Source: Couchioplanes caeruleus (GTDB lineage Bacteria > Actinomycetota > Actinomycetes > Mycobacteriales > Micromonosporaceae). Taken from it: a DNA stretch of 64,000 nucleotides. The translations under genes were made by a program, and so were the position numbers. The stretch is taken from positions 7,954,501-8,018,500 of the forward strand of contig NZ_RJKL01000001.1 of the NCBI RefSeq assembly GCF_003751945.1, given 5' to 3'. Every line of letters begins with the position of its first letter. Positions within the stretch are counted from its first letter, which is position 1. This document shows positions 929-50,672 of this stretch, piece by piece. The notes under the pieces are model-generated. The model did no database searches and was not told the DNA's origin. It was given only the letters and a program-made list of their open reading frames with translations.

Positions 929-1720
929 ATGACCGTTACCGCTCCGAAGGCCGGCACGGGGAGTGACACCGCGTCGGACAGTGCCGCGGACTTGCTCGAC
1001 GCCATGGCCGCCGTGCCCGCCGAGGACCGCCGCCACGCCGCGCTGCGGGACCGGGCGATCGAGGCCTGGCTACCCCTGGCCCGCCACCTCGCCCACCGCT
1101 ACTCCGGCCGCGGCGAACCCACCGACGACCTCATCCAGACCGCCACCGTCGGCCTCATCAAAGCCGTCGACAAGTTCGACCCCACCCGCGGCGTCGACTT
1201 CGCCGGCTACGCCATCCCCACCATCATCGGCGAGATCAAACGCCACTTCCGCGACCGCACCTGGTCCGTCCGCGTCCCCCGCCGCCTCCAGGAACTCCGC
1301 CTGGCCATCACCGAAGCCAACGCCACCCTCACCCACACCCTCGGCCGATCCCCGACCGTCGCCGACATCGCCACCCACCTCGGCGTCACCGAGGAAGACG
1401 TCCTCGAAGGCCTCGAAGGCGCCCGCGCCTACAACGCCACCAGCCTCTCCACCCCGATCAGCGCCGACGGCACCACCGAACTCGGCGACACCCTCGGCAG
1501 CGAGGACCACGAATACGAACTCGCCGAAACCCGCGTCGCCCTCGGCCCCGCCCTGGCCACCCTCGACCCCCGCGAACAGAAGATCCTCACCCTGCGCTTC
1601 TACGGCAACCTCACCCAGTCCCAGATCGCCGACCAGATCGGCATCTCCCAGATGCACGTCAGCCGCCTGCTCACCAAGGCCCTGACCAAGCTGCGCACCC
1701 AGCTCGACGCCGCACGCTGA
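929..1720 (+). CDS. RNA polymerase sigma factor, SigB/SigF/SigG family
   Basis: A 263-residue group 3 sigma factor that would direct RNA polymerase to stress or developmental promoters. Region 2 (about residues 45-115) includes DDLIQTATVGLIKAVDKFD and GEIKRHFRDRTW, the signature of the SigB/F/G group. Region 3 follows (AITEANATLTHTLGRSPT), and region 4 (residues about 205-260) has LTQSQIADQIGISQMHVSRL, the -35 helix-turn-helix. The ATG is preceded by GGAGGA (915-920) at ideal spacing. No anti-sigma gene adjoins it; partner-switch proteins sit 37 kb away in this window. A second relative with an extra STAS domain is encoded at 36839. Confident in family, not in regulon. Confidence 0.93.
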   Translation: MTVTAPKAGTGSDTASDSAADLLDAMAAVPAEDRRHAALRDRAIEAWLPLARHLAHRYSGRGEPTDDLIQTATVGLIKAVDKFDPTRGVDFAGYAIPTIIGEIKRHFRDRTWSVRVPRRLQELRLAITEANATLTHTLGRSPTVADIATHLGVTEEDVLEGLEGARAYNATSLSTPISADGTTELGDTLGSEDHEYELAETRVALGPALATLDPREQKILTLRFYGNLTQSQIADQIGISQMHVSRLLTKALTKLRTQLDAAR

Positions 1721-7332: not shown

Positions 7333-7630
7333 GCAGCGTCGCGCTGGCGCCGACCTCCCCGGCACGGGCGTCGCCCGGCAGCAGCGAGCCGCTGGCCAGC
7401 ACCACCGGGATGTGCTCCAGGCCCGGGTCGGCGCGGATCGCCCGGCAGAGCTCGAGCCCGCTCATCCGGGGCATGTCCACGTCGGTGATCACGACGTCCG
7501 GCTTGTGCCGGCGGACGGCTTCGAGGGCCTCCGCGCCGTCGGTGGCCGCGACGACCTCGTGGCCGGCCCGCTCCAGCGCCCGGCGGAGCACGAGCAGGAT
7601 GTCCTCGTGGTCCTCTGCAACAACGATCAT
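7265..7630 (-). CDS. Single-domain response regulator (CheY-like receiver)
   Basis: 121 residues forming only a receiver domain: acidic pocket E6-D7, phosphoacceptor D50 (VVITDVDMP), S80 in VVLASG and K101 in TLLKPF. With no output domain it probably acts by protein contact or as a phosphate shuttle. It is convergent with and overlaps (68 bases) the histidine kinase gene, which makes the kinase its likely partner. GGGAGAGG lies upstream of the ATG. Confident in fold; the partner is an inference. Confidence 0.9.
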   Translation of the reverse strand: MIVVAEDHEDILLVLRRALERAGHEVVAATDGAEALEAVRRHKPDVVITDVDMPRMSGLELCRAIRADPGLEHIPVVLASGSLLPGDARAGEVGASATLLKPFLPAQLLACVADLMPSRPA

Positions 7631-7751
7631 GACGCCTGCCTCTCCCGCGCTCCGCCTGTCGCAGGCACAAAGAGCGACGCGCCCGGGCGGACACGGGCGT
7701 CGGCCGAATCGTTGCCGGATTAATCACCGGGCATTCCGCGAGCGGAGTGCC

Positions 7752-7757
7752 TATTGT
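7752..7757 (+). promoter_or_regulatory. Candidate leaderless -10 element for hrpA
   Basis: TATTGT (TANNNT type) ends 9 bases before the hrpA ATG, and no ribosome site lies between, suggesting leaderless transcription. Confidence 0.45.
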
Positions 7758-7766
7758 TGACCCGCC

Positions 7767-10700
7767 ATGTCTGTCACACCCCTGAGCCAGGACCTCGCCG
7801 AGCTCCGCCGCAGAGTCTCCGATCTCCTTCCCCGCGACGAGCGCCGGCTCCGGCGCCGGCTCGACGGCATCCGCAAGGTGCGTGACGAGGGCGCCCGCGC
7901 GGCCGTGCTCGCCGACATCTCCGGTGAGGTGTCCCAGGCCGAGTCGCGGCGCGAGGCCCGCCTGGCGAACGTCCCCGCGGTGTCGTATCCGGACGAGCTG
8001 CCGGTCAGCCAGCGCAAGGACGACATCCTCGCCGCGATCCGCGACCACCAGGTCGTGGTGGTGGCCGGCGAGACCGGCTCGGGCAAGACCACCCAGATCC
8101 CGAAGATCTGCGTCGAGCTCGGCCGGGGTGTGCGCGGCCAGATCGGGCACACCCAGCCGCGGCGCATCGCCGCCCGCACCGTGGCCGAGCGCATTGCCGA
8201 GGAGCTGGGCACGCCGCTGGGAGCGACGGTCGGCTACAAGGTCCGCTTCACCGACCAGGTGTCCGACGAGACCATGATCAAGGTGATGACGGACGGCATC
8301 CTGCTGGCCGAGATCCAGAACGACCGCCTGCTGCGCCGCTACGACACCCTGATCATCGACGAGGCGCACGAGCGCAGCCTCAACATCGACTTCATCCTCG
8401 GCTATCTCAGGCAGCTGCTGCCGCAGCGGCCCGACCTCAAGCTGATCATCACCTCGGCGACCATCGAGACCGGCCGTTTCGCCGAGCACTTCTCCGGCCC
8501 TCGGGGCCCGGCGCCGGTAATCGAGGTGTCGGGGCGCACCTATCCGGTCGAGGTGCGGTACCGGCCGCTGGTCGAGGAGACCGAGGACAGCCGGGAGGAG
8601 CCGCTCGACCAGGTCGACGGGATCGCCGCCGCGGTCGACGAGCTGGGGCGCGAGGGCAGTGGCGACATCCTGGTCTTCCTCAGCGGCGAGCGGGAGATCC
8701 GCGACACCGCCGACGCCCTGAACCGCCGGAACCTGCGCGACACCGAGATCGTCCCGCTGTACGGCCGGCTGTCCGCCGCCGAGCAGCACCGCGTCTTCGA
8801 ACGCCACACCGGCCGCCGCGTCGTGCTGGCGACCAACGTCGCGGAGACCTCGCTGACCGTGCCGGGCATCCGCTACGTCATCGATCCCGGCACCGCGCGC
8901 ATCTCCCGCTACAGCAACCGGCTCAAGGTACAGCGGCTGCCGATCGAGCCGGTGTCGCAGGCCAGCGCCAACCAGCGCAAGGGCCGCTGCGGCCGGACCA
9001 GCGACGGCATCTGCATCCGGCTCTACTCCGAAGAGGACTTCGCGGCGCGGCCGGAGTTCACCGAGCCGGAGATCCTGCGCACCAACCTGGCCTCGGTCAT
9101 CCTGCAGATGACCAACCTCGGCCTCGGCGACCTGGCCGCTTTCCCATTCATCGACCCGCCGGACCGGCGCAACGTCACCGACGGCGTCAAGCTGCTCGAG
9201 GAACTCGGCGCGCTCGACGCCCGCAAGCTCACCCCGCTGGGACGCAAACTGGCCCAGTTGCCGGTCGACCCGCGGCTGGCCCGCATGGTCATCGAGGCCG
9301 GCGAGCAGGACTGCGCCGCCGAGGTCATGGTGGTCGCCGCCGCGTTGTCCATCCAGGACCCCCGCGAGCGACCCGCCGACCGCCAGCAACAGGCGGACGA
9401 GAAGCACGCCCGGTTCACCGACAAGGAATCCGACTTCTTCACGTACCTCAACCTCTGGCGCTACCTGCGGGAGAAGCAGCGCGAGCTGTCCGGCAACCAG
9501 TTCCGGCGCCTGTGCCGCGCCGAGTTCCTCAACTACCTGCGCGTCCGCGAGTGGCAGGACATCTACTCCCAGCTCAAGCAGGTGGCCCGGAGCCTCGGCC
9601 TGACCATCGTCGAGGACGACGAGCGGACGCCCGACGGCCGCCGCTTCCACACCGCCCTGCTCGCCGGTCTGCTGAGCCACATCGGGCTCAAGGACGTCGA
9701 CAAGCGCGAGTATCTCGGCGCCCGTGGCGCCAAGTTCGCCGTGTTCCCCGGGTCGGCGCTGTTCAAGAAGCAGCCCCGCTGGATCATGGCGGCCGAGCTG
9801 GTCGAGACCTCGCGGCTGTGGGGCCGGGTCAACGCCCGGATCGAGCCGGAGTGGGCCGAGGCCCTCGCGCCGCATCTGGTGAAGCGCAGCTACAGCGAGC
9901 CGCACTGGGAGAAGAAGCAGGGCGCCGTCATGGCGTACGAGAAGGTGACGCTCTACGGTCTACCGATCGTGCCCCGGCGCAAGGTCGGTTACGCCAAGGT
10001 GGACCCCGACATGTGCCGGGAGCTGTTCATCCGCCACGCGCTCGTCGAGGGCGACTGGGACACCCACCACGCGTTCTTCGCCGAGAACGCGGCCCTGCTG
10101 ACGCGCATCGAGGAGATCGAGAACCGGGCCCGGCGCCGCGACATCAAGGTGGACGACGAGACCGTCTTCGCCCTCTACGACGCCCGGATCCCCGCCGACG
10201 TGGTCTCCGCCCGGCACTTCGACGCCTGGTGGAAGAAGGCTCGCCGGGAGAATCCCCAACTGCTCACGTTCACCCGGGAGCTGCTGGTCAACGCCGGGCG
10301 CGACGCGGTGGACCCGGGCGCCTACCCGGATGCGTGGCTCGCCGGCGAGGTCCGTCTACCGCTGAGCTACCAGTTCGAGCCCGGCGCCGCCGCCGACGGG
10401 GTCACCGTGCGCGTGCCGCTGCCGCTGCTCAACAAGCTCGACGCCGACGACTTCGGGTGGAACGTGCCGGGCCTGCGCCGGGAGATCATCGTGGCGCTGA
10501 TCCGCGCTCTGCCGAAGCACCTGCGGACCAGCTTCGTCCCGGTGCCGGACTGGGCCGACGCGGTGCTCGCCCGCATCCCCGCCCGCCGGGGCGCACTGAG
10601 CGACGCCGTCGGCGACGAGCTGCGCCGGCTCACCGGCACGGTCGTGCCGCGCGACGCCTGGCGGCCCGGCCAGGTCCCCGACCATCTGCGGATGAACTTC

Positions 10701-33253: not shown

Positions 33254-36200
33254 ATGGCCTTGGTCGGCATGAAGTACGTTAATCCGGACAGCGTGCTCGC
33301 ACGCACGGCGTGGGAGATGGTCCAGGCGCACGCGGGCGGCCGGGGCCCGCACGACGGCATCACCATCTGCCCGGTCTGCGGCGAGGCCCTGCCGTGCACC
33401 GCCGGCCGGGCCGCGGCCGAGGTCGTCGCCGCGGCGGGCCTGGCGGAGAGCTCCGGCCTGATCGCGGCGGCCCGAGGCGGCCCCGGCGCCTCCCCACTCG
33501 GACTCCCGGCGGCAGCCATCCAGCAGGCCACGGTCGCCATGCCCCCGAACCCGGCCCCCACCTACTCGCCGTCCGCACCGAGCACCGACCTCCCCCCGCT
33601 CCCCACCGCCACGCCGGCCACGCCCCCGTCGGCGTCGTCGTTCTCCCCGTACGCGTCGGCGCCCGCACTCCCGCCGGCCGACGTCCCGGGCGGCTCGCCG
33701 TCGTTCCCGCTCCCCACGGAACCGCTGCCGACTCCGGCTTATGCATCCCCGGCCGACTCACCGTCCCCGCCGCCCTTCGAGCCGGCCATTTACCCTCGCA
33801 CATCGGCCCCGCACACCACGCCGGACCCGCTGACCGACCCGCTGAGCGCACGCACCCCGTTGACCTCGCTGGACCCACTGACCTCGCCAGACCCGCTGAC
33901 TGCGCCGAACCCGCCCAGCGCGCGCAACTCTCTGACCTCGCCGGGCCCAGTCACCTCGCCGGGCCCGCTGACTGCGCCGGACCCGCTGACCGGGCGGAAT
34001 TCGTTGACCTCGCCAGACCCAGGGACCGCATCGGCGCCGGACCCGCGGACCGCGTCCGATCCGCTGAACCCGAGAGACGGGGGGCCTGCGTCGGCCCTGA
34101 TGGCCGCGTCGGCCCCGCCCGAACCGCTGACGCCGCCCGCCTATAACCGCGTTCCCTATCGGGCCGGTCCCGCGCCGGAGCCGACCGGCCTGTCGTTCTC
34201 GGCGCCCGTATCCTCGCCGCCGGCTCAGGGACCGGTCGTCGACCCCCAGGCGGCCCCGCCGTCGGGCCTTCGCCCGCCGCCGCACGACATGCCCCCATCG
34301 AGCGCTGTGCGCCCAGCCTCTGACTCTCCCGCAACCCCCGCGACTCCCGCAGCCCCCGCGCCTCCCGGCGGCCTCGCCGCTCCTGGCGGCCCTGCCGCTC
34401 GCCCGCCGATGGCTGCGTCCCAAGCATCCCCGCCGACGGCGCTCCCACCAGGATCGGCAGGTCCATCGCCCGCGTCGCCGACCCGCCCGCCGATGGCCCA
34501 GCCGCCGGCAACCGAGCCGTCATCGACCTGGCAGCCGACCCCGCCGGCGGCGCCGCAGGCGGCACCCCACTCATCCGCTCCACCGTCGCCGGCAGGCGAG
34601 CCTTCCGGCCTCAGGCCTGCTCCTTCCGGGCTCCGGCCTGCCTCCTCCGGCCTCCAGCCCACCCCGTCCGGCCCTCCGCCCGGCGCCGCACCCGCCACGT
34701 CCTGGCCCGCCCCGCAAGCCGCGCCGCCGCAGCCGGGCGCCCCGACCCCACCCACCACGCCGTCCGGCCTGGCGCAGCCCGGTCCCGGCCGGCCGGGCGC
34801 CGCGGTTCCGCCCACCGCCCAGCCGGATCTGGCGCACCCCGGTCCCGGCCGGCCGGGCGCCCGCCCGCCCGCCGCGCCACCCGGCGCCGCGATGCCGCCT
34901 GCCGCCCAGCCGGGCGTGCGCCCGGGACCGACCCAGCCGAACGGCTCGATGGCGCCCGCCGCACATCCCGCCGCCGCACATCCCGCCGCCGCGCATAGTG
35001 GTGCCGCCCAGCCGTCGCTGCCGCCCGGAGCCCCACCCGCGGTGCCTGGGGCGCGCCCGTCGCCAGGCCCGGGACAGATGCCGTCCGCAGCGCAGGACGT
35101 GGACCCGCTGTTGCTCGGGCCGCCGCTGTTCGTCCAGCAGAACCGTCCCCTGGATGCACCCCGCTTCACCCCGTCGGCCCGTCCACCGGAAGAACCCGCG
35201 CCGCCGGCCCGGCCCGGCCCGGCGAGGCCGCCCGTGGCTGCCGCAGCGCCGCCGCCCGTCGCCGAACCGACCCCCGGCCCGGCCGTGTCCGACCCGACAA
35301 CACCCGTCGCCGGGGCCGACTCGCCTTCCGGCCTGGCCGGGACCGCCTCGGCCTCCGGCTTGACCCGGACCGCCTCGGTCTCCGGCCTGGCCGGGGGCGA
35401 ACCGGCCTCCGGCCAGGCCGCGCCTGAAGCAGCCGCACCGCCCGCCGCGACCGGCCCTGCTCCGTCGGGACTCAGGCCTCCCCAGGAGCCGGCGCAGGCA
35501 GTCGGAACACCGTCGCCGTCGACTGCGGACAGCGCCTTCCGCACCGCCGACCCGGTCGCCCGTGCGTCCCGCCCGCCGCTCGAACCGCCGCAGCTCGGAC
35601 AGCTCAACCGGCCCGCCGGCGAGCCCGGCGCCGAACCGGCCCACCCGGCCGCACCCGCCGGGGTCCCGCAGGACGGCCCGGCCAAGCCCGCCACCGCACC
35701 CTCCGGCCTTCCGCAGCCGGCAGCCGCCCGATCCGGCCTCGCGCAATCCGCACCCGCTCAGCCGGACGCCGGCCAGTCGGGTCTGGGGCAGTCGGGGCCG
35801 GGCCAGTCGGGACTGGCCCGGTCAGGTCCAGGGCAGGCCGCCGCGCAGGCCCCCGGCCAGGCTTCCGGACAGGCTGCGCCTGGGAAGGCTGCTTCCGGGC
35901 AGGCCGCCGCCCCGCCGCCGGCCGCACCGGACCGCCCGGCTTCCGGCCTGGACCTGGAGTCCGCCTTCCAACGTCCACCGGCGAGAAGCGACTCCCCGTC
36001 CGGGCTGAGCCGCACCGCGCCGGATCGGGCCGCGCCGGGCCCCGGGCGCGAGACATCCGGCTCCGGCGCGCCGTCCGGGCTCTCCCGTCCGGCGGCCGCT
36101 CCCGGCGCGTCGTCCGGTTCGAACCGCCCGCAGCAGGCTCCGCGCCCCGGTCGCCCGCCGCTCGAGCCGCCGCAGATGGGCCAGCTCAACCGCCCGGTGC

Positions 36201-36580
36201 ACGCCACGGGCGAGGGCGCCGGCGGTGCGAACCCGGCCCCGTCGGGCCTGACCGCGCAGGGAGGCGCCCAAGGGGCCCCGTCGGGTCTGGGCGGCCCGGG
36301 AGCCCCGTCGGGCCTGGGTGCGCAGGGACCCGGGCGGGGGGCGCCGTCGGGCCTGGGTGCGCAGGGACCCGGGCGGGGGGCGCCGTCGGGCCTGGGCGCG
36401 CAGGGACCCGGGCGGGGGGCGCCGTCGGGCCCCGGAGTGCAGCAAGCCGGGCAAGGGGCGCCGTCGGGGCTCACCGGGAGAATGCCGGCCGCGGAGGGGG
36501 AGCGTGCCGCCGCGCCGCGGCCCGCCGCGACCGGTGAGGAGGAGGCACCGAGCGGGCTGCCCCGGCGCCCGCAGCCGTAG
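33254..36580 (+). CDS. 1108-residue Pro/Ala/Ser/Gly-rich, largely disordered protein
   Basis: Only the first ~75 residues look folded: MKYVNPDSVLARTAWEMVQAHAGG, then CPVCGEALPC, a possible zinc knuckle, then an Ala-rich helix. The remaining ~1030 residues are low-complexity, first PDPLT-type repeats, then Pro/Ala/Ser, then PSGL and GQ-rich repeats. A motif RPPLEPPQ(L/M)GQLNRP occurs twice (DNA near 35570 and 36150), with a variant near 35120 (LLLGPPLFVQQNRP). No signal peptide. I do not recognise the family. It could be a scaffold presenting short linear motifs. It lies 258 bases upstream of the sigma-STAS gene on the same strand. GGGGTGG precedes the ATG; ATG 33269 is an alternative. Confidence 0.7.
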   Translation: MALVGMKYVNPDSVLARTAWEMVQAHAGGRGPHDGITICPVCGEALPCTAGRAAAEVVAAAGLAESSGLIAAARGGPGASPLGLPAAAIQQATVAMPPNPAPTYSPSAPSTDLPPLPTATPATPPSASSFSPYASAPALPPADVPGGSPSFPLPTEPLPTPAYASPADSPSPPPFEPAIYPRTSAPHTTPDPLTDPLSARTPLTSLDPLTSPDPLTAPNPPSARNSLTSPGPVTSPGPLTAPDPLTGRNSLTSPDPGTASAPDPRTASDPLNPRDGGPASALMAASAPPEPLTPPAYNRVPYRAGPAPEPTGLSFSAPVSSPPAQGPVVDPQAAPPSGLRPPPHDMPPSSAVRPASDSPATPATPAAPAPPGGLAAPGGPAARPPMAASQASPPTALPPGSAGPSPASPTRPPMAQPPATEPSSTWQPTPPAAPQAAPHSSAPPSPAGEPSGLRPAPSGLRPASSGLQPTPSGPPPGAAPATSWPAPQAAPPQPGAPTPPTTPSGLAQPGPGRPGAAVPPTAQPDLAHPGPGRPGARPPAAPPGAAMPPAAQPGVRPGPTQPNGSMAPAAHPAAAHPAAAHSGAAQPSLPPGAPPAVPGARPSPGPGQMPSAAQDVDPLLLGPPLFVQQNRPLDAPRFTPSARPPEEPAPPARPGPARPPVAAAAPPPVAEPTPGPAVSDPTTPVAGADSPSGLAGTASASGLTRTASVSGLAGGEPASGQAAPEAAAPPAATGPAPSGLRPPQEPAQAVGTPSPSTADSAFRTADPVARASRPPLEPPQLGQLNRPAGEPGAEPAHPAAPAGVPQDGPAKPATAPSGLPQPAAARSGLAQSAPAQPDAGQSGLGQSGPGQSGLARSGPGQAAAQAPGQASGQAAPGKAASGQAAAPPPAAPDRPASGLDLESAFQRPPARSDSPSGLSRTAPDRAAPGPGRETSGSGAPSGLSRPAAAPGASSGSNRPQQAPRPGRPPLEPPQMGQLNRPVHATGEGAGGANPAPSGLTAQGGAQGAPSGLGGPGAPSGLGAQGPGRGAPSGLGAQGPGRGAPSGLGAQGPGRGAPSGPGVQQAGQGAPSGLTGRMPAAEGERAAAPRPAATGEEEAPSGLPRRPQP
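36320..36436 (+). repeat. Three 39-bp tandem repeats coding for AQGPGRGAPSGLG
   Basis: In-frame copies at 36320, 36359 and 36398, the first two nearly identical, inside the C-terminal part of the 1108-residue protein. The 13-residue unit alternates Gly/Pro/Gln with PSGL. Confidence 0.9.
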
Positions 36581-36838: not shown

Positions 36839-37972
36839 ATGCCTATACAGGAGGACTCGTCCCGGGTTCTCGAGGATCTGGACGCCGCGGCGGTCGACTA
36901 TGCCGCCCGCGTGGCGGCGGCCTCGGACGCCGAACGTGCCGTCCTGCGGGACCGGCTCACCCGGGTCTGCCTGCCCTTCGCCGGCCGGATGGCCCGCCGC
37001 TACCGGGGCCGCGGCGAGGCCCTGGAGGACCTCGAGCAGGTCGCGCGTCTTGGCCTGATCAAGGCCATCGACCGGTACGACCCCGAGCGCGGCTCCTTCA
37101 CGGCGTACGCGGTCATCACGATCTCCGGCGAGATCAAGCGGCACTTCCGGGACCGGACCTGGGGGGTGCACGTGCCGCGGCGGATCCAGGACCTGAGTCT
37201 CGAGGTCGGGCACGCCTCGATGGTGCTGACCACCGAGTTGTCGCGGACGCCGACCTCGGCCGAGCTCGCCGAGCGGCTCGGGGTGGGCGAGCCGGCCGTG
37301 CGAGAGGCGCTGGAGTCGGCGGCCGGCTATTCGCCGTCGTCGTTGAACGCCCCGGCGGGTGGGGAGGGTACCGCCGAGTTCGGTGACCTGATCGGCGGCG
37401 CGGACAGCGACCTGGAGCTGGTCGACGACCGGCTCACCGTGGCCGGGCTGCTGCTGCGCCTGCCGCCGCGGGAACGGCAGATGCTGGCGATGCGCTTCTA
37501 CGGCAACCGCACCCAGGCCGAGATCGCCACCGAGCTGGGCATCTCGCAGATGCACGTGTCGCGCCTGCTCAGCCGGTCGCTGGCGTGGCTGCGGGAGGCG
37601 ATGCTCAGCGACGGGCCGCCGCGCTGGGAGGGCGCCGGCGGTCCCGCGGATGCGCACGGCATGCGGATCGCGGTGGACCGCGCGGGCGGCGTGCTCACCG
37701 TCCGGGTGCACGGCGAGGTCGACCGGGACACCGCCGATCGCCTGCGGATGTCGTTGCGCCACGCGATCTCGTCGGCCGCCGCGGGGGAGCGGCTGGTGAT
37801 CGACCTGAACGCCGTGCCGCTGGTCGACGCCGCCGGGGTCTCGGTGCTGCTCGACACGGCGTCGGCCGCCGCCGCGGCCGACATGGACCTGGCCCTGACC
37901 GGCGCCCAGCCCTACGTCGCCCGCATTCTCGGCGTCTCCGGCCTGCAGAAGGCGATGGACCCCCGGCGCTGA
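36839..37972 (+). CDS. SigB/F-family sigma factor with C-terminal STAS domain
   Basis: 377 residues. Sigma region 2 (about 42-112: EDLEQVARLGLIKAIDRYD, GEIKRHFRDRTW), region 3 (about 113-190) and region 4 (about 200-255: RTQAEIATELGISQMHVSRLL) are followed by a ~20-residue linker. Then comes a STAS domain (275-373: GGVLTVRVHGEVDRDTADRL, RLVIDLNAVPLVDAAGVSVLLDT). STAS proteins normally bind anti-sigma ATPases and are inactivated by phosphorylation of a Ser in DSSG; here the site reads D330-A-A-G333, with no Ser. The domain may therefore hold off an anti-sigma permanently. The ATG follows GAAGGGAA. It is convergent with a STAS-ATPase gene one base away. Confidence 0.93.
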   Translation: MPIQEDSSRVLEDLDAAAVDYAARVAAASDAERAVLRDRLTRVCLPFAGRMARRYRGRGEALEDLEQVARLGLIKAIDRYDPERGSFTAYAVITISGEIKRHFRDRTWGVHVPRRIQDLSLEVGHASMVLTTELSRTPTSAELAERLGVGEPAVREALESAAGYSPSSLNAPAGGEGTAEFGDLIGGADSDLELVDDRLTVAGLLLRLPPRERQMLAMRFYGNRTQAEIATELGISQMHVSRLLSRSLAWLREAMLSDGPPRWEGAGGPADAHGMRIAVDRAGGVLTVRVHGEVDRDTADRLRMSLRHAISSAAAGERLVIDLNAVPLVDAAGVSVLLDTASAAAAADMDLALTGAQPYVARILGVSGLQKAMDPRR

Positions 37973-38701
37973 TCAGCTCGTCGCCAGCGAGGCCCAGACG
38001 ACCTTGCCGCCGGCGCAGGGCAGCCAGTCCCAGGCGTGGGCGCTGGCGTTCACCAGTATGAGCCCGCGGCCGCCGGGCGCGGTCGGTGACGGCCTCGTCG
38101 GAAGCATCGGTGGCTCGCTGGAGCCGTCGCGAACGGCGATCTGCAGATAGCGGCGGCGCAGCGTCACGCGCAGGGTCATCATCGTGTGCGCGTGGTCGAC
38201 GACGTTGCTGACCAGCTCACTCGCGATGAGGCTGGCCGGGGCCACGAGGTGGGGCAGATCCCACCGCAGGCAGGCTTCGGTGGCGATGTTGCGGGCCTGC
38301 CGGGCGGCTCCGCGGACGGGCAGGAGCTCGTCGCTCAGGCTCGGCCGCACCCGGCGGTCGTCGTCGAGCACCGCACGCGCCGCGTCGAGCGAGGCGAAGA
38401 CGAGCAGCTGCTTGTACGCCGCCAGATGCAGGGACTGGCGGGTGCCGGAGCGCGGGCCGCAGAGCAGCACCGGGATGCCGGGCCAGCGCTCGGCCTGCCG
38501 GGCGACAGCGGCGAAGACGGCGAGGGCGAGCGGCTCTCTGACGTCGAGGGCCGATATGTCGAGCAGAAGTGCGTCGGGCTGCTCGGCCAGGCACTTCAAG
38601 AGCTGTGTGCGTACTTCGGACACGTTGAGCAGCTCGAGGTGGCCGGAGAACACGACGACCAGGCGCCCTCCCTCCGCGCACACCTCCGTCTCGACGCTCA
38701 C
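37973..38701 (-). CDS. STAS-HATPase fusion (anti-sigma regulatory kinase type), copy A
   Basis: 242 residues: a STAS-like domain (about 1-110, RLVVVFSGHLELLNVSEV, ALLLDISALDVREPLALAVF) joined to a GHKL ATPase of the RsbW/anti-sigma type (about 125-242). The ATPase has N box ASELVSNVVDHAH, VRDGSSEPP and GGRGLILVN. The STAS signature Ser is absent (DVREPLAL). RsbW-type ATPases bind and inhibit SigB/F factors and phosphorylate STAS partners; the nearest partner is the sigma-STAS fusion ending one base away on the other strand. GTG start with GGGAGGG upstream, and a strong sigma-F-type promoter at 38735-38759. It shares its layout with copy B at 41649. Confidence 0.88.
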   Translation of the reverse strand: MSVETEVCAEGGRLVVVFSGHLELLNVSEVRTQLLKCLAEQPDALLLDISALDVREPLALAVFAAVARQAERWPGIPVLLCGPRSGTRQSLHLAAYKQLLVFASLDAARAVLDDDRRVRPSLSDELLPVRGAARQARNIATEACLRWDLPHLVAPASLIASELVSNVVDHAHTMMTLRVTLRRRYLQIAVRDGSSEPPMLPTRPSPTAPGGRGLILVNASAHAWDWLPCAGGKVVWASLATS

Positions 38702-38734
38702 GGCGGTCCCTCCCTGCCCACTGGAGCCCCCGGG

Positions 38735-38759
38735 GTACCCGTCACCCCGTCGGCGAAAC
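38735..38759 (-). promoter_or_regulatory. Sigma-F-type promoter for STAS-ATPase copy A
   Basis: On the minus strand: GTTT (38759-38756), 15-base spacer, GGGTAC (38740-38735), predicted start near 38728, 27 bases before the GTG. A close match to the SigB/SigF consensus GTTT-N15-GGGTAT. Confidence 0.75.
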
Positions 38760-38760
38760 C

Positions 38761-40620
38761 TCAGGCGTCGTCGGCTTCCATGACGATGATGGCCCCCCCG
38801 GCCCCGCGGGTGACGTCGAGCCCGCGGAGCGGGGCGCACGCCACCCGGACGACGACCGCACGCCCGCGCCGGTTGATCGCGTCGAGGGTCACCTCGCCGG
38901 ACGAGCCCTCGTCGCCGAGCGCACCCCGCAGGATGGGCCTGAGCTGCTCGAACGGCAGGCCTATGTCCAGGTTGAGGAAGTGCTGGCCGACCACCTCGGA
39001 GGAGCGCAGTCCCCACAGGTCCTCGGCGCGCTGGTTCCACATGCGGACGCGCAGATCCAGGGTGACCACGGCGACGCCGGCGCGCAGGCTGGTCAGCACG
39101 GTCTCCAGGAACGAGTTGGCCTCGTCGAGCTGAGCGCTGCTGACCCTGAGCTGGTCGTTGATGCTCTGGAGCTCGTCGTTGGTGGACTGGAGCTCCTCGT
39201 TCATCGTCTCCAGCTCCTCGTTGGTGGACTGGAGCTCCTCGTTCGTGGTCTCCAGTTCCTCGACGGTCGACTGGAGCTCCTCGTTGGTCGTCTCGAGTTC
39301 CTCGTTGGTGGACTGGAGCTCCTCGTACGCGGCCTCGAGCTGCTGGTTGGCGTGCTCCAGGTCCGCCTGGAGCCGGCGCGCGGCAGTGACGTCATGGAAG
39401 ATCAGGTTGACCCCGAGCAGGCTGCCGTCGTTGCCGGTCAGCGGGCTGACCTGCACCTCGAGGTGGGTGGTCTCGCCGTTGCGGCCGTACTCCACGTCGG
39501 TGACCCGTAGGGTGCGCCGCTCCAGCTGGGCCTGCTCGATGTAGCGGCGCAGCTCGACCGGGCGGTACGACACCTCCAGGTCGCGGAAGGGCCGCCCGAT
39601 GTCGCGTGACGACACCCCGAACATCTTCTCGAGCCGCCGGTTGGTCAGCGCCACCAGCCCGTCGGAGGTGAGGCCGAGCTGCGCGACCGGACTGGCCGCG
39701 AAGGCCTCGTTGCGCAGCTCGTCCAGGCCGACGACCGCGCCGTCGACGGTCTGCAACGGCTCGGAGAAGACCGCGCCGGCGATCGGCATGACGCGGGGGA
39801 CCCGGCGGAACACCCGGCGCTTGAGGTCGATGGGCGTGAAGAGGTTACCGTGGCTGAGGAGCATCTCGGCCTTGCCGAGGAAGAGCACGCCGCCGTCGGC
39901 GAGGGCGAAGTGGAACCGGGACAGGATCTTGGCCTGCGTCTCCGCGTTGAAGTACATCAGCGTGTTGCGGCAGGTCAGCAGGTCGATGCGGGAGATCGGC
40001 GCATCCTGCACCAGGTCGTTGCGGCCGAAGATGATCGAGCGTCGCAGGTCCTTGCGGAAGGTGAAACGGTTGCCGGCCGGCTCGAAGTACTCGGCAGCGA
40101 GCTTGGCCGGCACGGCCTGCATCTCGCGTTCGCCGTAGGTCGCCTGCCGGGCCTCGGCGAGCTGCTCCTCGTCCACATCGGTGGCGTAGATCTTCACCCG
40201 TTCCCGGAAGGCGTCGATGCCCAGCGTCTCGGCGAGCGCCATGGCCAGCGTGTAGGCCTCCTCGCCCGAGGCGCACCCCGCGGACCAGATCCGGATGGGC
40301 GAGTCGGCGGGCTTGGTCGCCACCAGCGGCTCGAGCACCTCCGTGCGCAGGAAGTCCCAGGACTCGGAATCCCGGAAGAAGCCGGTGACATTGATCAGGA
40401 TGGTGTTGAACAGCGTGGTGAACTCGTCCGGGTGGACCTGGAGGAAGTCCAGGTACTCCGGGTAGTCGGCGGCTTCGATCTGCGACATGCGGCGGTTGAC
40501 CCGCCGCATGAGGCTGGATCGCTTGTAGCCGGTGAAGTCGAAACCGCGCGACTCCTTGACATAGACCAGGAGGGCTTCGAAGTCGGGGTCGAAGGGGTTC
40601 ACGGGCAGACCGTATCTCAC
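38761..40620 (-). CDS. CheR-type methyltransferase fused to coiled coil and PAS domains
   Basis: 619 residues. The CheR N-domain (FTGYKRSSLMRRVNRRMSQ) and SAM-binding methyltransferase domain have IRIWSAGCASGEEAYTLAMAL, IYATDVDEEQL and CRNTLMYFN (about 10-275). A PAS domain follows (about 285-400), then a long coiled coil of repeated EELQSTNEELETTN units (about 415-490; DNA near 39150-39350) and a second PAS domain (about 500-610). This resembles CheB/CheR/PAS sensory proteins outside chemotaxis. It would methylate glutamates of an unknown acceptor. No chemoreceptor or cheA gene is in the window. It follows cheB by 12 bases. The GTG start lacks a clear ribosome site. Confidence 0.88.
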   Translation of the reverse strand: MRYGLPVNPFDPDFEALLVYVKESRGFDFTGYKRSSLMRRVNRRMSQIEAADYPEYLDFLQVHPDEFTTLFNTILINVTGFFRDSESWDFLRTEVLEPLVATKPADSPIRIWSAGCASGEEAYTLAMALAETLGIDAFRERVKIYATDVDEEQLAEARQATYGEREMQAVPAKLAAEYFEPAGNRFTFRKDLRRSIIFGRNDLVQDAPISRIDLLTCRNTLMYFNAETQAKILSRFHFALADGGVLFLGKAEMLLSHGNLFTPIDLKRRVFRRVPRVMPIAGAVFSEPLQTVDGAVVGLDELRNEAFAASPVAQLGLTSDGLVALTNRRLEKMFGVSSRDIGRPFRDLEVSYRPVELRRYIEQAQLERRTLRVTDVEYGRNGETTHLEVQVSPLTGNDGSLLGVNLIFHDVTAARRLQADLEHANQQLEAAYEELQSTNEELETTNEELQSTVEELETTNEELQSTNEELETMNEELQSTNDELQSINDQLRVSSAQLDEANSFLETVLTSLRAGVAVVTLDLRVRMWNQRAEDLWGLRSSEVVGQHFLNLDIGLPFEQLRPILRGALGDEGSSGEVTLDAINRRGRAVVVRVACAPLRGLDVTRGAGGAIIVMEADDA

Positions 40621-40632
40621 GGGCTCGGCGGA

Positions 40633-41652
40633 TCAGGACGACGGCGCCGGATCGTCCACCGAGCCCGACGATCCGAGCTGCGCGATCAGCCGGCGGATCG
40701 TCTCGCCGGCCGCTTCCGCGTCGTGTGCCATGTCGTGGAAACGGGCGGTCGTCACCGGGTGCCGGTGGCTGATGGAGCCGGCCATGCGCCGGCTCAGCGC
40801 GGACTTCTCCTCCAGCGCGCGCAGGGCCATCCACAGCGCCCCTTCCAGAGCGATCGCCTGCTCATCCAGCAGACTCTCCGGCGACCAGGCGTGACCGACC
40901 CGGCACCGGTAGCGCGGCACCGGCTTGTCGCCGAGCTGGAACAGGCTCCCGCCGCAGGCGGGACAGCCGAAGCCCGCCGGTGCGGCGTCGAGCTCGTCGG
41001 TGGTCAGCGGGCCGAGTTCGGAGATGGCCACCTCGGCCTCGAGAAGCTGGTCCGCGCGGCGCGGGGGGTGCTCTGGCAGGTCCATGGCGGTGATCCCGGC
41101 GATGAGGGCGCCCATCTTGGCGACGGGCACGATGTGGTCGGGCGTGGCGTGGTCGATCGCGGCGCGGGGCATCGAGGCGTGGAGCGCGTCCTCCGGGGCC
41201 TGGACCACCGTCGTCCCGCCCCGGGCGGCGATGCTGGCCAGCCCGGCGGCGCCGTCGTCGCGGGCTCCGGAGAGGACGACCCCGATCACCCGTTCGGCGT
41301 AGGCCCGGGCCGCGGAGCGGAACAACGGGTCCACGGCGGGACGGTGCCCGTTCTCCGCCGGTCCTCGGGTGAGCCGGATCCGGCCGTCGAGGATCAGCAG
41401 GTGGTGGTCGTTGGGGGCCACATAGACGCGGCCGTGCCGCAGCTCCTCGCCGTCGACGGCGGCCGTCGCCGGAAGGGGGCCGCTGCGCGACAGGATCGCC
41501 GGCAGCGCACTGGGCGAGTCGCGCGGCACGTGCAGGACCACGAGGACCGCGCCGGGATAGTCCGGCGGGAGCCCGCCGACCAGGGCGCGCAGTGCTTCCA
41601 CGCCGCCGGCGGAGGCGCCGACGACGACCACGTCGCGGTGCTCGACCGTCAC
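40633..41652 (-). CDS. CheB-type protein-glutamate methylesterase without receiver domain
   Basis: 339 residues. The methylesterase domain (about 5-190) carries the catalytic Ser in VVGASAGGVEALRALV, the His in VVLHVPRDSPSALP and the Asp in LSGARDDGAAGL. The C-terminal ~130 residues contain a Cys-rich patch (FGCPACGGSLFQ ... YRCRVGHAW) and a helical tail. The usual N-terminal receiver domain is missing, so control must come from elsewhere. The GTG overlaps the stop of STAS-ATPase copy B (GTGA), and the CheR-PAS gene follows. The three genes form one operon. Confidence 0.88.
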   Translation of the reverse strand: MTVEHRDVVVVGASAGGVEALRALVGGLPPDYPGAVLVVLHVPRDSPSALPAILSRSGPLPATAAVDGEELRHGRVYVAPNDHHLLILDGRIRLTRGPAENGHRPAVDPLFRSAARAYAERVIGVVLSGARDDGAAGLASIAARGGTTVVQAPEDALHASMPRAAIDHATPDHIVPVAKMGALIAGITAMDLPEHPPRRADQLLEAEVAISELGPLTTDELDAAPAGFGCPACGGSLFQLGDKPVPRYRCRVGHAWSPESLLDEQAIALEGALWMALRALEEKSALSRRMAGSISHRHPVTTARFHDMAHDAEAAGETIRRLIAQLGSSGSVDDPAPSS

Positions 41653-42386
41653 GCCGCTCCTGCCGTCAACTTCGTCCAGACCACCTTACCGTCTGAGACG
41701 GGCAAAACGCCCCATGCGTCGGTGAGTTCCCGGACGAGGTGCAGCCCGCGCCCGCCCGCTTCGGAGACGCTCGGGGCCTTGGGCCGCGGCAGCAGCCGGC
41801 TGCCGTCGCGGACGGTCAGGCAGACCCGGTCGTCGCGCAGCGCGAGCGTGAACTCCATCGTGGTGTGCGCGTGCCGGACGACATTGGCCACGAGTTCGGT
41901 CGCGACGAGGCTGATCGTGGCGGCGAGCTCCCGGAGCTGCCATGCCGCGCAGGCCTGGGACACGAGCTGGCGGACCTGGCGGCAGGCGTCGGGCACGGGC
42001 CGCAGCCGGACCCGGATCCGCGGCGGTACCGGCTCGTCGAGCTGCTCGGCGAGCGCCTTCTCGCAGCTTTCCTCCGTGGTCACGGTGTGGCAGCCGGGCC
42101 AGTCGCGCAGGGTCCGGGCGGTGTCGGTCTCCGCCCCGCACAGCACGACCGGTACGGCGGGCCACTCGGCGGTACGGCAGACGATGGAGCTCAGTACGTC
42201 CAAGGCGGAGGGTTCGGCGACTTCGAGGGCGCTGATGTCGACGAGCAGTGACTGCGGCTGCGCGGAGAGGGACCGCGCAAGGGCCCGTTCCAGGGCGTCG
42301 CCAGTGACCGCGTCCAGCACTCCGCTGACCCGCAGCACCGCCACCGGAAGGTCCTGTTCAGGCCGGCAGACAAGCTGACTCGACAT
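41649..42386 (-). CDS. STAS-HATPase fusion, copy B
   Basis: 245 residues: STAS-like domain (1-110: LRVSGVLDAVTGDALERAL, SLLVDISALEVAEPSALDVL, which keeps one Ser) and GHKL ATPase (ATELVANVVRHAH, VRDGSRLLP, GGRGLHLVREL). Same layout as copy A, and likely to act on a sigma or STAS partner. The ATG at 42386 is preferred because GGAAGGGGG lies 3-11 bases upstream. It heads the operon with CheB and CheR-PAS. Confidence 0.87.
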   Translation of the reverse strand: MSSQLVCRPEQDLPVAVLRVSGVLDAVTGDALERALARSLSAQPQSLLVDISALEVAEPSALDVLSSIVCRTAEWPAVPVVLCGAETDTARTLRDWPGCHTVTTEESCEKALAEQLDEPVPPRIRVRLRPVPDACRQVRQLVSQACAAWQLRELAATISLVATELVANVVRHAHTTMEFTLALRDDRVCLTVRDGSRLLPRPKAPSVSEAGGRGLHLVRELTDAWGVLPVSDGKVVWTKLTAGAA

Positions 42387-42434
42387 CGGCCCCCTTCCGT
42401 CGTCGCGCCGCACCCGTCACGTCGTTCGCTCCCT

Positions 42435-48427: not shown

Positions 48428-48452
48428 GTTTCCGATCTTCGGCGGTGGGTAT
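48428..48452 (+). promoter_or_regulatory. Sigma-F-type promoter for the DksA-like gene
   Basis: GTTT (48428-48431), 15-base spacer, GGGTAT (48447-48452), an exact match to the SigB/SigF consensus. Predicted start near 48459, giving a ~74-base leader. Confidence 0.8.
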
Positions 48453-48532: not shown

Positions 48533-48955
48533 ATGCTCGTCAACAGTGCGGTCATCACGGGTAAAGGTGCCGACACCGCCAAGGGACGCTCGACGGACGA
48601 GATCGAGCAGATCCGGGCATTGCTGCAGTCCCGGTTCGACGATCTGAACGCCGAATACGAGGAGGCCGTGGCCGAGAACCAGCGGCTCCGGCTGGTCGAG
48701 ATCGGCGACGCCGCCGGCGACGACCAGGCCGACAGCGGCTCCAAGACCGCCGAGCGCGACGCGGCGACGTCGCTGCTGCGCACCCTGCTCGACCGGCGTA
48801 CGCAGGCGGAGATCGCCATGCAGCGACTCGACGAGGGCTCGTACGGCAACTGCGAGAGCTGCCACAACCCGATCCCGGTCGAGCGGCTCGAAGTGTTCCC
48901 GTCGGCCACCACGTGCGTGCACTGCAAGGCCAACCGCGAGCGTCGCGCGGGCTGA
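48533..48955 (+). CDS. DksA/TraR-type C4 zinc-finger protein
   Basis: 140 residues. A long coiled-coil helix pair (IEQIRALLQSRFDDLNAEYEEAV ... AEIAMQRLDEGSYG) precedes a four-cysteine zinc finger NCESCHNPIP ... TTCVHC. Such proteins bind the RNA polymerase secondary channel and tune stress transcription, often with ppGpp. The ATG at 48533 has AGGGGAG upstream. A consensus sigma-F-type promoter 81 bases upstream ties it to the stress sigma network. Confidence 0.88.
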   Translation: MLVNSAVITGKGADTAKGRSTDEIEQIRALLQSRFDDLNAEYEEAVAENQRLRLVEIGDAAGDDQADSGSKTAERDAATSLLRTLLDRRTQAEIAMQRLDEGSYGNCESCHNPIPVERLEVFPSATTCVHCKANRERRAG

Positions 48956-50656: not shown

Positions 50657-50672
50657 GCTGATGGTCTCCCCG

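Follow-up and report, generated by a model that had tools for sequence, protein, structure and literature searches.

The locus studied here raises the question of what a STAS (anti-anti-sigma) domain without a phosphorylatable residue does at the end of a sigma factor: does it shield that factor from inhibition, or does it offer the inhibitor a place to dock? The window, the whole stretch of 64,000 nucleotides of Couchioplanes caeruleus DNA that was analysed, contains on its forward strand a gene (36839..37972) that translates into 377 aa with no internal stop. A sigma domain of residues 36-255 (regions 2, 3 and 4; 36944..37603), scoring above the cut-off of the NCBIfam SigB/SigF/SigG family, is joined by a linker of residues 256-274 (37604..37660) to a STAS domain of residues 275-375 (37661..37963), delimited by Pfam, structure alignment and predicted structure. 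The Pfam matches fell at residues 45-108 (Sigma70_r2), 123-185 (r3), 205-253 (r4) and 277-372 (STAS, 1.2e-14). The first-pass annotation had described a full SigB/F sigma factor and a STAS domain in one 377-codon frame, and translation, Pfam and NCBIfam all agreed with it. In the predicted structure (mean pLDDT 84.8, pTM 0.40) the STAS fold was confident, with a helix from residue 331 onwards, while the linker scored low; a fold search with the model listed RNA polymerase sigma factors. Autoinhibition through a fixed packing of the STAS onto the sigma domain found no support in this single-chain model, given its pTM and its low-confidence linker. An artefact, in which a sequencing error joins two genes, had been named as what would overturn the reading; its probability is negligible, and it was ruled out in practice by the presence of the fusion in 109 of the 120 related loci fetched, from many assemblies. 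These loci were chosen from the matches, with four genomes contributing two loci each, and may overlap with the 120 database proteins listed of 6339 matches, all of which (query included) carried the STAS family.

The STAS domain aligned with the solved structures of SpoIIAA, TM1442 and RsbS-type proteins. The D-S-S-G of SpoIIAA fell on D330-A331-A332-G333 (37826..37837), a switch loop with no Ser or Thr, and the earlier observation of DAAG in place of DSSG, without the phosphoacceptor serine, was thereby upheld. We take the first Ser of the SpoIIAA DSSG to be the phosphorylated residue, consistent with RsbV Ser56. Measured against RsbV and SpoIIAA, the C-terminus of the sigma factor has the STAS fold, lacks the Ser/Thr acceptor (A331) and is not a stand-alone small protein. 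A second loop, G292-E-V-D-R-D297 (37712..37729), aligned with the GE-D loop of SpoIIAA and probably corresponds to the RsbV Asp23 loop. In the RsbV-RsbW crystal, the acceptor Ser56 of RsbV bonds Glu49 of RsbW, and RsbV Asp23 bonds RsbW Arg23. Residues G292, E293, D295, R296, D297, A331, A332 and G333, D330 not among them, were nearly invariant in an alignment of 41 rows. Ala followed Asp in 120/120 listed database proteins, none of which had Ser or Thr at the acceptor column, and Ser/Thr was found in 0 of the 109 STAS-bearing loci (Ala 98, Gly 7, Pro 2, His 1, Met 1). Among 50 Pfam STAS matches of the genome, a set without the STAS encoded at 37973, the residue after Asp was Ser in 29 (one without the Asp), Ala in 8, Thr in 5, Val in 3, Ile in 2, Pro in 2 and Leu in 1. 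Exact DAAG occurred in five of these 50, the window sigma factor included; a STAS domain without Ser is a minority state in this genome, neither rare nor unique.

A fusion of this kind and its inhibitor are already in print, as sigma-SsdA and SipA of Actinoplanes missouriensis (Tezuka et al. 2023, PMC10733313; statements taken from it refer to passages of its main text), and the window protein is a further member of this known system. We identified the A. missouriensis orthologue by matching two lengths and five residues: at locus L166, one frame of 379 aa carries D68, F91, S100 and L372, as published for sigma-SsdA, and the adjoining convergent frame of 243 aa carries S229, as published for SipA. 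Its switch loop reads VDAAG, and the window protein is ~70% identical to it. Like members of the sigma-SsdA family, which combine SigB/F/G and STAS domains in one protein of ~379 aa, the window gene encodes both in 377 aa. It has an adjacent, convergent sipA homologue (37973-38701), as in Actinoplanes, Pseudosporangium and Couchioplanes, and it grouped with the A. missouriensis protein away from STAS-less SigF-type factors. In the tree, both proteins belonged to one 22-row group with support 100/96, five outgroup rows lying apart, in a bootstrap that was not fully settled. The two loci also have a common gene order, namely sigma-STAS, convergent sipA, cheR, cheB (a weak match in L166) and a second STAS-ATPase; secA2 then follows in the window and several other relatives. 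By these features, the window gene is an orthologue of sigma-SsdA. The two systems are alike in domain order, size, convergent SipA, DAAG loop and SigB-type promoter, but the sigma factors are only ~70% identical, and the experiments concern the A. missouriensis pair whereas the window orthologue is known from its sequence.

The first-pass annotation had proposed two roles for the altered STAS domain: a permanently active cis antagonist shielding its own sigma factor, or a decoy drawing kinases away from other sigma factors. Work on SpoIIAA and RsbV leads one to expect an always-binding antagonist when the acceptor Ser is changed to Ala. In line with this, the SpoIIAA chain of 1TID and 1TIL, entries for complexes with SpoIIAB, reads DASG, and a decoy could meet 80 HATPase_c_2 matches in the genome at E<=1e-3, histidine kinases probably among them. 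The experiments on the A. missouriensis orthologue point the other way. There, two-hybrid analysis indicated that the RsbW-like domain of SipA binds the STAS domain of SsdA and not its sigma domain, and genetics indicated that SipA restrains sigma-SsdA, the phenotype of a sipA deletion needing ssdA (PMC10733313). Inhibition of the orthologue thus goes through the STAS domain, which contradicts self-protection, and we consider a shield or decoy very improbable, although the domain may still act as a decoy. Because of the same two-hybrid and genetic results, we regard the STAS domain as a docking site for the inhibitor.

Our preferred reading, which we hold to be likely, is that the STAS domain is a docking handle for SipA which gives a phosphorylation-proof grip, and that the sigma factor in turn drives sipA. 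In this scheme SipA, encoded next door, would use its RsbW-like domain to grip the STAS domain and thereby keep the attached sigma factor inactive. With Ala at the acceptor site, phosphorylation there could not serve SipA as a means of letting go, and release would have to come by another route, with either SipA itself changing or a free STAS protein competing for it. The freed sigma factor would then drive sipA, yielding more captor and a negative feedback. This reading rests on the STAS-SipA binding, the restraint by SipA and the promoter consensus reported for the A. missouriensis pair (PMC10733313), from which binding of SipA to the window STAS, and inhibition by it, are extrapolated; the orthology, the lack of Ser/Thr among the relatives examined and the conservation of the sipA promoter come from the sequences compared here. 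We infer that the window orthologue behaves as the A. missouriensis one does, that phosphorylation cannot undo the grip because the Ser is missing and that the feedback operates. Compared with RsbV-RsbW-SigB and SpoIIAA-SpoIIAB-SigF of B. subtilis, the STAS and RsbW-like ATPase folds are alike and the contact loops are probably the same. However, RsbV and SpoIIAA are free, Ser-phosphorylated STAS antagonists that release sigma, whereas the window STAS belongs to the sigma factor itself, has neither Ser nor Thr at the acceptor site and, in the orthologue, is used for inhibition. Rv1364c-type multidomain regulators of M. tuberculosis, which we take to carry an RsbW-like domain fused to other pathway regulators and no sigma domain, are alike in having that domain fused; 3ke6 was among the structure matches listed.

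The SipA orthologue of the window (37973..38701, reverse strand) consists of a STAS-like part and an RsbW-like ATPase. Its GTG start was taken by homology at 38701, giving 242 aa, instead of the start of the 355-aa ORF. The STAS-ATPases noted at 37973 and 41649 both proved real, and the proposal of the first as the likely partner of the STAS domain gains support, by analogy, from the published SipA-STAS two-hybrid of the A. missouriensis orthologue. The ATPase part, a HATPase_c_2 match, contains E162, N166, D192-G193 and G211-R-G-L214; it has the fold together with the N-box Glu/Asn, G1 and G2, as these motifs are named in RsbW and SpoIIAB ATPases. E162, N166, D192, G193 and G211-L214 were invariant in 27/27 aligned Actinoplanes-type SipA sequences, and SipA may still bind ATP because the N-box Glu/Asn is kept. 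In the same 27 sequences the acceptor column of SipA's own STAS is always Pro, which rules out phosphorylation of that STAS there. The predicted structure (pLDDT 87.4, pTM 0.76) matched STAS antagonists and SpoIIAB/RsbW-type chains in Foldseek, and the nearest named relative of the window SipA is from Couchioplanes azureus. A convergent SipA adjoins the sigma gene in 19/20 Actinoplanes-type loci. A search for SipA in 30 chosen genomes left 7 without a match at E<=1e-15, fusion-bearing ones among them, while distant paralogues blur the rest.

The conservation of SipA's ATPase also bears on another explanation, partner switching at one remove, which we judge possible but doubtful. SipA would hold the Ser-less STAS domain until a free STAS protein that has the acceptor Ser loses its phosphate, binds SipA in competition and thereby liberates the sigma factor; the kinase residues of SipA would serve this free partner. 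Both published STAS partners of SipA lack the acceptor in the sequences examined here, and retention of the N-box Glu/Asn in every aligned SipA speaks for such switching, as does Ser at the acceptor column in 29 of the 50 genome STAS matches. Yet these SipA residues may have been retained for nothing more than ATP binding. To our knowledge, no free STAS switching partner of SipA is known, and none is named in the main text of PMC10733313.

Several other genes surround this pair. Upstream of sipA and in the same direction lie a CheR methyltransferase with PAS domains (38761..40620), a CheB methylesterase (40633..41652), both assigned by Pfam and NCBIfam, and a second STAS-ATPase, the SipA paralogue SipA2 (41649..42413; Pfam, homology). 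On the reverse strand from 37973 to 42413, sipA2, cheB, cheR-PAS and sipA1 are thus arranged with the STAS-ATPases flanking CheB/CheR, an order kept in many Actinoplanes-type loci; it may tie methylation-type signalling to the anti-sigma factor. Just upstream of the sigma gene is a 1108-aa Pro/Ala/Ser-rich frame (33254-36580, forward strand) without a Pfam match, the first 120 residues of which were matched upstream of the sigma gene in 11/20 Actinoplanes-type loci. A further SigB/F/G-family match above the cut-off lies in a 268-aa open frame at 1037-1705 (forward strand).

A motif search identified a promoter-like GTTT-N15-GGGTA site at 38736..38759 (reverse strand), 34 bases before the sipA start. 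It is one of two exact GTTT-N14-16-GGGTA sites in the window (0.09 expected), to which GnTT adds a third at 50672, and it fits the published sigma-SsdA consensus GnTT-n14-CGGGTA (PMC10733313). The promoter type GTTT-N15-GGGTAT suggested from the sequence is consistent with both this consensus and this site, from which recognition by the window sigma factor is predicted. When the looser GnTT-N14-16-GGGTA was searched up to 250 bases upstream of sipA in relatives, it was found before intact sipA in 17/19 Actinoplanes-type and 50/50 Micromonospora-type loci, the latter being close relatives and not independent cases. Controls gave 0/19 for SipA2, 0/120 for the sigma gene and 430/24,000 for random windows. 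Collectively, these data indicate that the sigma factor probably drives sipA from 38736-38759, which would establish a negative feedback. Two results count against it: the site preceded only 2/16 SipA-like genes of more distant lineages, and the strict published form fitted 0/50 Micromonospora-type loci, of which 49 have a spacer of 16 and one has a spacer of 15. Other SigF-type sigma factors could also read sipA-type promoters, and three further sigma factors of the genome score above the SigB/F/G family cut-off. The published RNA-seq regulon was defined by comparing a strain deleted for sipA alone with one deleted for both sipA and ssdA (PMC10733313); since sipA is absent from both strains, it could not appear in that regulon. 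Words starting with feedback or autoregulat do not occur in the main text of that paper.

A SigF-type sigma factor may have another target at the second exact GTTT-N15-GGGTA site (48428-48451, forward strand): a dksA/traR zinc-finger gene (48533-48955, Pfam PF01258) begins ~80 bases beyond it. At two Micromonospora-type loci (L095, 8082-10085; L090, ~7605-9812; both reverse strand), the space between the sigma gene and sipA holds a cytochrome c oxidase subunit I gene, downstream of sipA and on its strand, and selection on the promoter may therefore act via the oxidase gene. At L083, L300 and L304, sipA lies only ~100 bases from the sigma gene. A cytochrome oxidase gene at such loci is also named in PMC10733313, and SigF of M. 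smegmatis is tied to the aa3 oxidase in the abstract of PMC10950880.

Natural losses of the STAS domain were found in 11 Micromonospora-type loci, in which the sigma factor ends soon after region 4; the sample comprised all 11 STAS-less loci fetched and 45 of the 49 listed STAS-bearing ones. In the tree, eight of the 11 form one group and the other three have no settled placement, giving at least two and at most four independent losses. In six of the 11 loci, visual inspection of all three forward frames beyond the sigma gene showed no STAS remnant, which argues against a frameshift with the STAS remnant still in place. The STAS-less loci have sipA intact in 8, in two frames in 1 and not nearby in 2, and the 45 STAS-bearing loci have it intact in 42, split in 2 and not nearby in 1. 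The eight intact sipA genes keep the promoter. Their products retain the N-box ELVGN (8/8), one having lost the Gly of the DGS motif, and their dN/dS values, averaged over non-independent pairs, were 0.26 against 0.33 in STAS-bearing strains for the ATPase part, and 0.45 against 0.40 for the STAS part. An intact, constrained SipA in these strains implies a role there that is independent of the STAS handle.

These losses would be expected if the STAS domain were a weakly constrained accessory, able to decay or vanish while the sigma factor is controlled elsewhere. The same idea could account for the broken switch loop in 15/109 STAS-bearing loci, 12 of which have no adjacent SipA, and for a dN/dS of 0.166 in the STAS domain against 0.024 in the sigma part of the 45 Micromonospora-type loci (0.41 and 0.22 in 21 Actinoplanes-type sequences). 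However, 0.166 still denotes purifying selection, SipA adjoins 73 of the 94 loci with an intact loop, and L372P in the STAS domain abolishes sigma function, as concluded in PMC10733313. A dispensable accessory is therefore improbable, slightly less so than a shield or decoy. The docking-handle reading must itself accommodate the eight STAS-less loci with intact SipA and the 21/94 intact-loop loci in which the convergent SipA directly downstream is missing (19) or split (2); SipA-like genes lie on the other side in 4 of those 19. Co-loss of SipA and STAS was rejected as proof of the handle: the lean of 12/15 comes from a small number of lineages, and SipA is mostly retained where the STAS was lost cleanly.

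The fusion appears to be confined to the family of Couchioplanes in the samples searched, one fusion in Nonomuraea (PMC10733313) excepted, although weaker independent fusions could be missed. Only three matches spanned the STAS domain among 394 genomes of the class (E<=1e-72), all in that family, and among the matches listed for 396 genomes of the phylum (1e-60) two did so, in the window's genome and one of the same family. A scan of named genomes found it spanned in 32 of the 80 loci kept, whose genera are presumably members of the family.

Our literature search on SsdA and SipA returned only PMC10733313, and neither the missing Ser nor the sipA promoter was found in print, supplements aside. 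No discussion of the missing Ser was found in the main text of that paper, where words with "phosphorylat" occur four times, in the introduction and on another system. What is new here is that relatives also lack the acceptor, that sipA has a promoter of the sigma-SsdA type and that some strains have no STAS domain on this sigma factor. We tentatively propose, with a confidence just short of even, that this sigma factor family turned an anti-anti-sigma domain into a phosphorylation-proof cis handle and drives its own captor, and that some Micromonospora-type lineages dropped the handle and kept captor and promoter, so that the captor would hold sigma directly or have changed its target. The missing acceptor Ser would explain why the STAS domain serves inhibition instead of release. 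The releasing signal must then enter elsewhere, a point left open in the main text of the 2023 paper, and the sipA promoter together with the natural STAS-less strains makes the mechanism directly testable.
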